The position numbers and the translations under genes are program-made. A stretch of DNA of 64,000 nt from Paramesorhizobium deserti. GTDB taxonomy: Bacteria > Pseudomonadota > Alphaproteobacteria > Rhizobiales > Rhizobiaceae. This document shows, piece after piece, positions 4,705 to 7,157 of the stretch. The stretch lies in the NCBI RefSeq assembly GCF_001558695.1, contig NZ_LNTU01000023.1:248001-312000 (forward strand), read 5' to 3'. The notes under the pieces were generated by a model that made no database searches, was not told the DNA's origin, and worked only from the letters and a program-made list of their open reading frames with translations. Numbering within the stretch: the first letter of the stretch is position 1; every line of letters begins with the position of its first letter.

Positions 4705-5166
4705 ATGACCGAAAGCGAGCTGCAGCTTTACCTTCACGAACATATTCCGCTTTCGATGGCGATGCAGGTGGCGGTCGTTGCGCTGCACGATGAGAGTGTT
4801 GTTCTCAAAGCACCGCTTTCGCCCAATATCAATCATCGCGAAACGGTTTTCGGCGGAAGCGCTTCGGCGCTTGCGATCCTGGCCGCATGGTCGCTCGTCC
4901 ACATCCGTCTCGTGCGGGAGGGGATTGTGAGCCGCATCGTCATCCAGAGCAACACGATGCGGTATGACGCCCCGATCAGCGGAACCTTCAGTGCCCGCTC
5001 GCAGCTTGCAGCCGGCGCGAACTGGGGCCGTTTCGTCGAAATGCTCAGGCGGAAGGGCAGGGCGCGGATAGAAATAGCCGCCGTGCTCGACTATGAGGGG
5101 AATGTCGCGGGCCGTTTTTCCGGTGAGTTTGTGGCTCTGGATGCCTTTTCGGGTCGAATGTCATAA
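4705..5166 (+). CDS. Hotdog-fold thioesterase-like protein (YiiD C-terminal family)
   Basis: A 153-residue single-domain protein that resembles the thioesterase domain at the C-terminus of YiiD. The signature region NHRETVFGGSASALAILAAW contains the FGGS turn of this family, and residues about 80-130 (IQSNTMRYDAPISG, then FSARSQL) form the second half of the hotdog sheet. The substrate is unknown. ATG 4705 lies 4 bp after the stop of the CDF gene, so the two are probably cotranscribed. A TTG at 4693 in the same frame is a less likely start. Confidence 0.75.
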   Translation: MTESELQLYLHEHIPLSMAMQVAVVALHDESVVLKAPLSPNINHRETVFGGSASALAILAAWSLVHIRLVREGIVSRIVIQSNTMRYDAPISGTFSARSQLAAGANWGRFVEMLRRKGRARIEIAAVLDYEGNVAGRFSGEFVALDAFSGRMS

Positions 5167-5169
5167 CTC

Positions 5170-5198
5170 TTGCGTCCCGCCAGTGTCTCGGCTATCAA
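5170..5198 (+). promoter_or_regulatory. leu leader promoter (-35 TTGCGT, 17 bp, -10 TATCAA)
   Basis: TTGCGT at 5170-5175 and TATCAA at 5193-5198 are 17 bp apart, and the -10 ends 8 nt before the ATG at 5207. The spacing is identical to that of the trpL promoter, and both ATGs sit in the same CCTCCATGAAC context. A leaderless transcript is predicted. Confidence 0.6.
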
Positions 5199-5206
5199 TT
5201 GCCTCC

Positions 5207-5323
5207 ATGAACACGCGCCCGGTCATATCCTCCTTCGTTCGCTCCGTATCCGCGGGCGCGAAGGCTTGCGCGCTTCCACTCTCGCTTCTTCTCGGCCTTA
5301 TCGGCGACCGTCGGGCTCATTGA
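5207..5323 (+). CDS. Putative leu operon leader peptide (38 aa, Leu-rich)
   Basis: A 39-codon ORF upstream of leuA whose residues 23-32 read LPLSLLLGLI, that is six Leu and one Ile in ten codons. The Leu codons at 5273-5299 end 5 nt before the first arm of a predicted antiterminator (5305-5314), and the stop codon lies between the two alternative structures. There is no Shine-Dalgarno sequence; the ATG sits 8 nt after a -10 box, as in trpL. The architecture is that of a ribosome-mediated attenuator sensing charged tRNA-Leu. Leu leaders of this kind are known in enterobacteria; I have not seen this particular one described. Support is structural, not homology-based. Confidence 0.62.
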   Translation: MNTRPVISSFVRSVSAGAKACALPLSLLLGLIGDRRAH

Positions 5324-5375
5324 GAGGAGCGTCCGGCGGTCGAATGGTCGCCAGGCCGATGCTCCTTTGTCTTTC
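5305..5375 (+). promoter_or_regulatory. Putative leu attenuator: antiterminator versus terminator
   Basis: Antiterminator: CGACCGTCGG (5305-5314) pairs with CCGGCGGTCG (5333-5342), ten pairs with one U-G. Terminator: AGGAGC (5325-5330) pairs with GCTCCT (5361-5366), with inner CC/GG and GGCG/CGCC pairs (5333-5338 with 5349-5355), followed by TTGTCTTTC. Both use 5333-5338, so they exclude each other. The U-tract is interrupted, which makes the terminator weaker than the trp one. Confidence 0.55.
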
Positions 5376-5459
5376 AACCCAATTGTACGAGATTAATGCC
5401 GTCGCCATCCGGTCATATGCTGCCGGTATGGTTTATGACCTGAAGAAACGAGACTAGCC

Positions 5460-7157
5460 ATGAACGAGACCAAAGCCCCTTTCGCCTTTGCCAAGGGCAT
5501 GCCTATCGCCGGCACCAAGTATCAGCCTTATCCGTTGGTCGATCTTCCCGACCGGACCTGGCCCAGCACGCGTATCGAGAAGGCGCCGATCTGGTGTTCG
5601 GTGGATTTGCGCGACGGCAATCAGGCGCTGATCGACCCGATGGGGCATGATCGCAAGGCGCGCATGTTCCAGCTTCTGCTGGAAATGGGCTTCAAGGAGA
5701 TCGAGATCGGCTTTCCCTCGGCCTCGCAGACCGATTTCGACTTCGCCCGCTGGTGCGTGGAGGAGGGGGGCGTGCCCCACGACGTCTCGCTGCAGGTGCT
5801 GGTGCAATGCCGGCCTGAGCTGATCACCCGCACCTTCGAGGCGCTGGAAGGCGCGCATCGCCCCATCATCCATTTCTACAATTCCACCAGCGAGTTGCAG
5901 CGCCGCGTGGTGTTCGCCAAGGATGTCGCCGGCATCAAGCAGATCGCCACCGACGCCGCCAAGATGATCACCGACATGGCGGCGAAGGCGGGTGGCGGTT
6001 TCCGCTTCGAATATTCGCCGGAGAGTTTCACGGGCACGGAACTGGACGTGGCGCTCGAGATCTGCAACGCCGTCACCGAGATCGTGAAGCCGACGGCCGA
6101 GAACAAGCTGATCATCAACCTGCCATCGACGGTCGAAATGGCGACGCCGAATATCTATGCCGACCAGATCGAATGGATGTGCCGCAATCTGGATAATCGC
6201 GAGAATCTGATCATCTCGCTGCATCCGCATAATGACCGTGGCACCGGCATCGCCGCGACGGAACTCGGCCTGATGGCTGGCGCCGACCGGGTGGAGGGCA
6301 CGCTTTTCGGCAATGGCGAGCGCACCGGCAATGTTGACGTGGTGACGCTGGCGCTCAATATGTTCACGCAAGGGGTCGATCCAGAACTCGATTGCTCCGA
6401 CATCAATCGGATGAAGGAGGTTTACGAATATTCGAACCAGCTGCGCATCCCCGAGCGGCATCCCTATGTGGGCGAACTCGTCTATACCGCTTTCTCCGGC
6501 TCGCACCAGGATGCGATCAACAAGGGCATGAAGGCGATCCGCCAGGCCAACAAGCCGCAATGGGAGGTGCCTTACCTGCCGATCGACCCGCAGGATGTGG
6601 GGCGTTCCTACGAGGCGATCATCCGCATCAACTCGCAGTCCGGCAAGGGCGGCCTCGCCTATATCCTGCAGGCCGATTACGGGCTCAACCTGCCGCGCAA
6701 TCTGCAGGTGGAATTCCGCGACGTGATCCAGCAAATCACGGATGAGGAAGGCAAGGAGCTGCCGTCGAAGCGCATTCATGACGAGTTCCAGAAAATCTAT
6801 GTGGAGCAGCCTGGTGCGCGGCTGAAATTCGTCGATCACCACACCTATCCCGACCCCGAGCGGAAGGGCCGGCGGATCATGTCGGCCGAGATCACCGACA
6901 ATGGCAAGACGAAGCGGATCGAAGGCAATGGAACCGGGCCGATCGACGGCTTCGTCGATGCGCTGTCGCATTATCTCGGCATCAAGCTCTCGGTGGTCGA
7001 TTATTCCGAGCACTCGTTGCGGCAGGGCTCCGACGCCTCCGCCGTCTGCTACATGGAGATCGCCCATCCCGGCGGGAAAATCTTCGGCGTCGGCATCAAC
7101 GACAATATCGTCACCGCCTCGCTCGAGGCGATCGTGGCGGCGGCGAACCGAGTGTAG
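5460..7157 (+). CDS. leuA: 2-isopropylmalate synthase
   Basis: Condenses acetyl-CoA with 2-oxoisovalerate, the first committed step of leucine synthesis. The 565-residue length and the early motifs WCSVDLRDGNQALIDPM and EIEIGFPSASQTDFDF mark the longer type-2 LeuA family. The metal-binding SLHPHNDRGTG lies near residue 254 and GLMAGADRVEGTLFGNGERTGN follows. The C-terminal ~120 residues (IEGNGTGPIDGFVDAL onwards) are the regulatory domain that binds leucine in this family. The upstream leader at 5207-5375 suggests attenuation as well as feedback control. The Shine-Dalgarno is weak. A repeat element starts right after the stop codon. Confidence 0.95.
   Translation: MNETKAPFAFAKGMPIAGTKYQPYPLVDLPDRTWPSTRIEKAPIWCSVDLRDGNQALIDPMGHDRKARMFQLLLEMGFKEIEIGFPSASQTDFDFARWCVEEGGVPHDVSLQVLVQCRPELITRTFEALEGAHRPIIHFYNSTSELQRRVVFAKDVAGIKQIATDAAKMITDMAAKAGGGFRFEYSPESFTGTELDVALEICNAVTEIVKPTAENKLIINLPSTVEMATPNIYADQIEWMCRNLDNRENLIISLHPHNDRGTGIAATELGLMAGADRVEGTLFGNGERTGNVDVVTLALNMFTQGVDPELDCSDINRMKEVYEYSNQLRIPERHPYVGELVYTAFSGSHQDAINKGMKAIRQANKPQWEVPYLPIDPQDVGRSYEAIIRINSQSGKGGLAYILQADYGLNLPRNLQVEFRDVIQQITDEEGKELPSKRIHDEFQKIYVEQPGARLKFVDHHTYPDPERKGRRIMSAEITDNGKTKRIEGNGTGPIDGFVDALSHYLGIKLSVVDYSEHSLRQGSDASAVCYMEIAHPGGKIFGVGINDNIVTASLEAIVAAANRV

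Follow-up and report, generated by a model that had tools for sequence, protein, structure and literature searches.

A conserved leucine-rich leader upstream of leuA in Paramesorhizobium deserti and its relatives, a probable ribosome-mediated attenuator

The DNA analysed here, called the window throughout, is a stretch of 64,000 nucleotides from Paramesorhizobium deserti that carries on its forward strand the gene leuA (5460–7157) for 2-isopropylmalate synthase, whose product matches the NCBIfam family TIGR00970 (leuA_yeast) with 768.6 bits against a cut-off of 697.4. Upstream of it, on the same strand, lies an open reading frame of 38 codons with a TGA stop (5207–5323), translated as MNTRPVISSFVRSVSAGAKACALPLSLLLGLIGDRRAH*. 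Ten of its codons, residues 23–32 (5273–5302), encode six Leu and one Ile, as the first-pass annotation of this DNA had stated, and all six Leu codons are CTT or CTC (CTT CTC CTT CTT CTC CTT). The last CTT is followed by an A, and the resulting CTTA (5297–5300) is near-invariant when loci are compared. A scan with weights for a rhizobial consensus places promoter-like hexamers in front of this reading frame on the forward strand, a −35 CTTGCG at 5169–5174 and a −10 CTATCA at 5192–5197, separated by a spacer of 17 nt, the −10 ending 9 nt from the leader ATG. Position 5170, at which the first-pass annotation had started the element, lies within this −35 hexamer; the leader does follow, from the ATG at 5207. 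A simpler scan of 4900–5700 for E. coli-type promoters returned no promoter and did not list the terminator hairpin described below, and its sole hairpin was another, weak one at 5409–5426 (one found, 0.7 expected).

The last codons of the leader contain the 5′ arm of a predicted antiterminator (arm 2, 5305–5316, forward strand), recognised by pairing and covariation, and its 3′ arm (arm 3, 5331–5342), recognised in the same way, lies just 3′ of the stop codon and is common to the terminator hairpin. The ten-base-pair antiterminator proposed earlier (5305–5314 with 5333–5342) indeed consists of ten standard pairs, and two further pairs extend it out to 5316/5331. The terminator hairpin (arms 3:4, 5324–5367) was delimited by folding and by its conserved lower stem, in which the alignment pairs AGGAGC (5325–5330) with GCTCCT (5361–5366). 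The two structures are mutually exclusive: the positions they were said to share, 5333–5338, are part of an overlap that spans 5333–5342. Folded in isolation, the alternative stems have nearly equal energies (−24.7 versus −24.9 kcal/mol). The sequence directly 3′ of the terminator hairpin reads TGTCTTTC, and the U-rich tract TTTGTCTTTC occupies 5366–5375 in the window and is missing from most relatives examined. A further reading frame (5344–5457), which starts inside the terminator hairpin and stops 2 nt short of the leuA ATG, is probably due to chance. Folding energies by themselves do not stand out (five stretches of the window gave z between −2.2 and 0) and would be insufficient as proof; the comparison with relatives is decisive and places the element far beyond chance.

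This comparison was based on 81 loci, the window plus the 80 listed among 592 leuA relatives, each taken with 2 kb of upstream sequence. Sinorhizobium fredii and S. terangae are represented among the loci compared. A Leu-rich leader precedes leuA in all 81, by a motif filter whose first version missed leaders ending in GCRVR and which was widened after the data had been seen; where one leader offered several in-frame ATGs, the one nearest 40 codons was chosen irrespective of the promoter. In the listed loci, 122–288 nt separate the end of the leader from the LeuA match, and the C-terminal motifs are few, mostly GDRRAR- or RGCRVR-like. Stem statistics were computed on an alignment of these loci anchored at the stop codon and comprising 79 distinct rows. 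Of the 948 alignment cells of the 12-pair antiterminator, 99.8% are paired, compared with 19–53% in controls in which the arms were slid, and three of the antiterminator pairs show two-sided changes, one of them a replacement of G-C by A-U in 30 of the 79 rows. In the lower stem of the terminator, 97.0% of 474 cells are paired (41–62% in slid controls), and three pairs again show two-sided changes; the covariation score of this stem is no higher than in the slid controls, two of six slid versions surpassing it. The covariation that the first-pass annotation had suggested looking for in the arms is accordingly present in the antiterminator and not above the slid controls in the terminator stem, and the conservation of peptide and stems, whose lack in relatives it had named as grounds for refutation, extends across the 81 listed loci. 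A possible 1:2 pause hairpin (CUCGGC with GCCGGG) is paired in 90.5% of cells, with covariation not above that of shuffles.

A covariance model (R1) built from 40 hand-picked rows of the 81 gave one strong match in the genome of P. deserti, the single one with E < 0.1, and matched 188 of 199 sampled genomes of the family. Among the 11 family genomes that it did not match, six lack any LeuA match, one has a weak partial LeuA (G769) and one a LeuA fragment (G685). The other three (G584, G642 and G755) encode a full-length LeuA, and G642 has a recognisable leader (L131) in spite of the missing model match.

The well-conserved C-terminal end, in most cases GDRRAR- or RGCRVR-like, would also be expected if the reading frame were a small protein gene whose C-terminus acts in trans, the stems being coincidental mRNA structure, and the S. 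meliloti peptide peTrpL has been described as a precedent (PMC7298713). We give this explanation very little credence: the codons for the C-terminus form arm 2 and show covariation with arm 3, which lies outside the reading frame, the N-terminal half appears by eye to be far more variable, and codon choice is conserved beyond what the amino acids alone would require.

Codon choice was tallied over the final 18 codons of each of 77 distinct leaders out of the 81 listed. Their Leu codons are CTT (59.8%), CTC (26.7%) and CTG (8.7%), as against 4.2%, 20.9% and 63.0% in the leuA genes, so that CTT and CTC together make up 86% of Leu codons in the leaders versus 25% in leuA. CTT is not rare in the window, where it accounts for 17.9% of the Leu codons of 38 long open reading frames. 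The last Leu codon is CTT in 73 of the 77 distinct leaders, and an in-frame CTT-A stands near the leader end at 80 of the 81 listed loci, L060 being the exception. The residue encoded after this Leu codon is variable, and the motif also occurs in many leaders of the class outside the family. Its conservation is not accounted for by the stems or by pairing; a pairing of CUUA with the stop region or with a hairpin loop was considered and dropped upon reading the leaders. In the genome of P. deserti, nine long genes could be typed among 45 tRNA matches, and they include one tRNA-Leu each with the anticodons GAG, TAG, CAG and CAA. CUU and CUC should both be decoded by tRNA-Leu(GAG), and the bias of the leaders thus points to this tRNA as the isoacceptor that is sensed; the preference for CUU makes isoacceptor-specific sensing testable. 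ARAGORN also reports a tRNA-SeC gene in this genome (L300, C37:43776–43866).

The promoter geometry of the window recurs among its relatives. The best promoter match ends 7–9 nt 5′ of the leader ATG at 66 of the 81 listed loci, and a match lies 5–11 nt 5′ of it at 71, compared with 7 of 81 for shuffled sequence; at six further listed loci, a second in-frame ATG located 6 nt upstream restores the distance. A Shine-Dalgarno-like motif precedes only one of the 81 listed leaders versus 51 of the 81 leuA genes, any in-frame ATG being accepted in the latter count. Because the −10 hexamer of the window ends 9 nt from the ATG, transcription would start at the AUG or within a few nucleotides of it. The leuA leader is probably leaderless, its start site being deduced from this spacing, like the trpL of S. 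meliloti, which is described as leaderless (PMC10117765, PMC7298713).

Beyond the family, the covariance model matched nine of 199 genomes in a sample of the order; seven of these matches stand before LeuA, six of them from the family and one from a different family, and the remaining two lie away from LeuA. In a sample of the class it matched 10 of 385 genomes, that of P. deserti included. Outside that genome, six matches (L086, L087, L089, L090, L091 and L095) stand before a LeuA that is 60–63% identical, and four (L088, L092, L093 and L094) are not before LeuA. A LeuA of the same type was found in 110 of the 385 class genomes, again counting P. deserti. We assembled 97 upstream regions, from 91 of these 110 genomes, three loci of the order search and the three family genomes without a model match; L224, with only 47 bases, was dropped, and some regions are shortened by contig ends. 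A Leu-rich peptide whose stop codon is spanned by a helix of 8 or more pairs is present in 38 of the 97 regions, and 32 of these also have CTT-A; the corresponding counts are 1/97 and 0/97 on the reverse strand and 10/291 and 0/291 in shuffles. CTT-A as a criterion was suggested by the same data, and reverse-strand controls for it gave 0/97 and 2/97. When the helix was not required, peptide plus CTT-A identified leaders in 56 of the 97 regions (2/97 on the reverse strand), the other 41 having no leader by this rule. The stop-codon helix occurs in 33 of the 56, compared with a mean of 14.8 (maximum 20) for permuted partners and 12.2 (maximum 15) for shuffled sequences. A promoter match 5–11 nt before an in-frame ATG accompanies 49 of the 56 (shuffle, 4), a count that is favoured by the choice of the ATG with the best-placed promoter. 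By eye, many of the class leaders are shorter, with RL(I/T)xPxL-like residues at their end. Judged by sequence, predicted leaders similar to that of the window precede leuA elsewhere in Alphaproteobacteria.

These distant leaders also bear on translational control of the kind described for the actinobacterial LEU element, in which the run of Leu codons (CUUCUUCUC) would pair with the Shine-Dalgarno sequence of leuA and a stalled ribosome would free it. Such an architecture has been described for Actinobacteria (PMC1262725), and at the 81 listed loci the Leu run forms a better duplex with its own leuA start than with other start regions of the same loci in 74% of cases (mean duplex energy −17.25 versus −14.43). 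Yet shuffled start regions are outperformed at only 58% of these loci, the conserved 2:3 and 3:4 stems would be left unexplained, and in 32 distant leaders 13.7% of Leu codons are CTA, which does not match a Shine-Dalgarno sequence (CTT 45.3%; 5.0% CTT and 0.9% CTA in 24 of their leuA genes). We consider translational control of this type unlikely.

For transcription attenuation, the family offers a second leader for comparison. The window itself carries a trpL leader peptide (MNNARIITNGWWWVR, 1344–1391) before trpE(G) (TIGR01815), followed 3′ by a stem (1445–1470) ending GGGCGGCC and TTTTTGTTTG, together a canonical trp attenuator. Terminators were scored by a rule requiring a hairpin of −8 kcal/mol or below followed by at least 5 T in 8 positions. 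All 30 listed trp leaders of the family (from 40 matching genomes of 41) conform to it, as against 9 of the 81 listed leu leaders, the two sets coming mostly from different genomes of the same family; in six of the nine the hairpin is at the conserved stem, and in L023, L036 and L040 it is elsewhere. With 4 T of 8, the counts for listed loci become 30/30 for trp and 21/81 for leu, and with 6 T of 8 they become 28/30 and 2/81, the window included in the latter. The first-pass reading of a terminator followed by a U-rich tract thus stands for the window, with 6 T of 8, and does not carry over to most relatives. Intrinsic termination is a well-founded prediction for the window and finds no support in the majority of the relatives studied, and its signature is missing in 72 of the 81 listed leaders, so that it would not be the general output of these elements. 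Two trpE(G) matches, in L258 (G597) and G579, contain one in-frame TGA each, which may reflect a pseudogene, a sequencing error or recoding.

A possible explanation, and our leading guess, is that leucine is sensed by ribosome stalling throughout and that, in most relatives, transcription would end through Rho or with the help of the hairpin, no U-tract being involved. Downstream of the 81 listed leu leaders, the highest T content averages 4.38 of 8, which equals the background of 4.33 (trp leaders, 6.4), and the 3:4 stem is kept although the U-tract is missing. Immediately 3′ of the conserved stem, the first 20 nt contain little G (11–13% G and 27–32% C, as compared with 32% G in the sequence preceding the promoter); this composition is that of 80 of the 81 listed leaders, L077 having been dropped since its fourth arm was not found. 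The combination of hairpin and U-tract is seen in just 10 of the 56 class leaders. However, an excess of C over G is no proven Rho site, the window has a U-tract terminator of its own, and it is not evident how 2:3 pairing would keep Rho from acting.

Taking these lines of evidence together, we consider it highly likely that the element attenuates transcription of leuA by a ribosome-mediated mechanism responsive to leucine, which would very probably let the cell raise the level of the leuA enzyme at leucine shortage. The attenuator proposed in the first-pass annotation is supported by comparative sequence data, as relatives retain the leader, its Leu cluster and the two stems, with covariation in the antiterminator. 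We infer the start site, the stalling, the termination and the response to leucine as follows. RNA polymerase would start at or next to the leader AUG, and a ribosome would load on the leaderless end. When charged tRNA-Leu is scarce, mainly the GAG isoacceptor reading CUU and CUC, the ribosome would stall in the Leu cluster; arm 2 (5305–5316) would then be free to pair with arm 3 (5331–5342), no terminator would form and leuA would be transcribed. When leucine is plentiful, the ribosome would reach the stop codon at 5321 and cover arm 2, arm 3 would pair with arm 4, and transcription in this genome would end at the U-tract (5366–5375). More tentatively, the leuA leader of Alphaproteobacteria may be characterised in general as leaderless and reading mainly CUU, with a near-invariant CUU-A at the last Leu codon, a stop-codon hairpin and mostly no intrinsic terminator, hence with an output that is not the textbook one.

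At gathering score, Rfam 15 has no match in the window or in eight related loci, the family RF00512 (Leu_leader) included, and a search of 5150–5480 up to E = 5 revealed no leader family; the single relaxed match in this segment, to an lncRNA, is at chance level. Searches of main texts in the open literature found no description of an alphaproteobacterial leuA leader. One such text states that a leucine riboswitch had not been predicted in S. meliloti or its relatives (PMC2245857), and another notes a small open reading frame before leuC of S. meliloti, a different gene (PMC10117765). An alphaproteobacterial ilvB leader is credited to Vitreschak 2004 (PMC1273637), and an ilvIH leader of Caulobacter is mentioned elsewhere (PMC4117421). 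The label 'undescribed' attached earlier to the leader therefore holds for Rfam 15 and for these main texts, while the survey of Vitreschak 2004 may already list it. The ilvIH and ilvB leaders, likened here by their description alone, belong to the same class and concern branched-chain amino acids, in another operon. A regulatory RNA of leucine synthesis that is absent from Rfam 15 would recur in plant symbionts and their relatives.

The enterobacterial leu operon attenuator (RF00512) resembles the leuA leader in its run of Leu codons, its competing stems and leuA as the first gene. The E. coli leu leader uses CUA codons, whereas the leaders studied here use CUU and CUC, have no Rfam match and, but for one of the 81 listed, have no Shine-Dalgarno-like motif in front. 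The actinobacterial LEU element likewise has a leader peptide with a Leu run before leuA, but its definition includes a pseudoknot and a base stem formed with the Shine-Dalgarno of leuA (PMC1262725); the leuA leader differs from it in having a 2:3 stem and in the weakness of pairing between Leu run and Shine-Dalgarno. The trpL/trpE(G) attenuator of S. meliloti, from the same family, is described with a leaderless leader, regulatory codons near the stop and an antiterminator/terminator switch (PMC7298713, PMC10117765), but senses Trp. The leuA leader looks built as a ribosome-mediated attenuator, one that probably starts leaderless and, for most of the relatives studied, lacks a canonical terminator. 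One family would hold two leaderless leaders, trp with a U-tract and leu mostly without, and this contrast offers a direct way to study how transcription is controlled by a stalled ribosome where an intrinsic terminator is not seen.

Two minor features were observed by eye upstream of leuA. At L030, L050, L013 and other loci of the Rhizobium group, the interval from the leader to the leuA start contains further small inverted repeats, of the type GACC..GGTC followed by GCATTTG..CAAATG, and at a few loci a possible second promoter is seen near CTTGAC.
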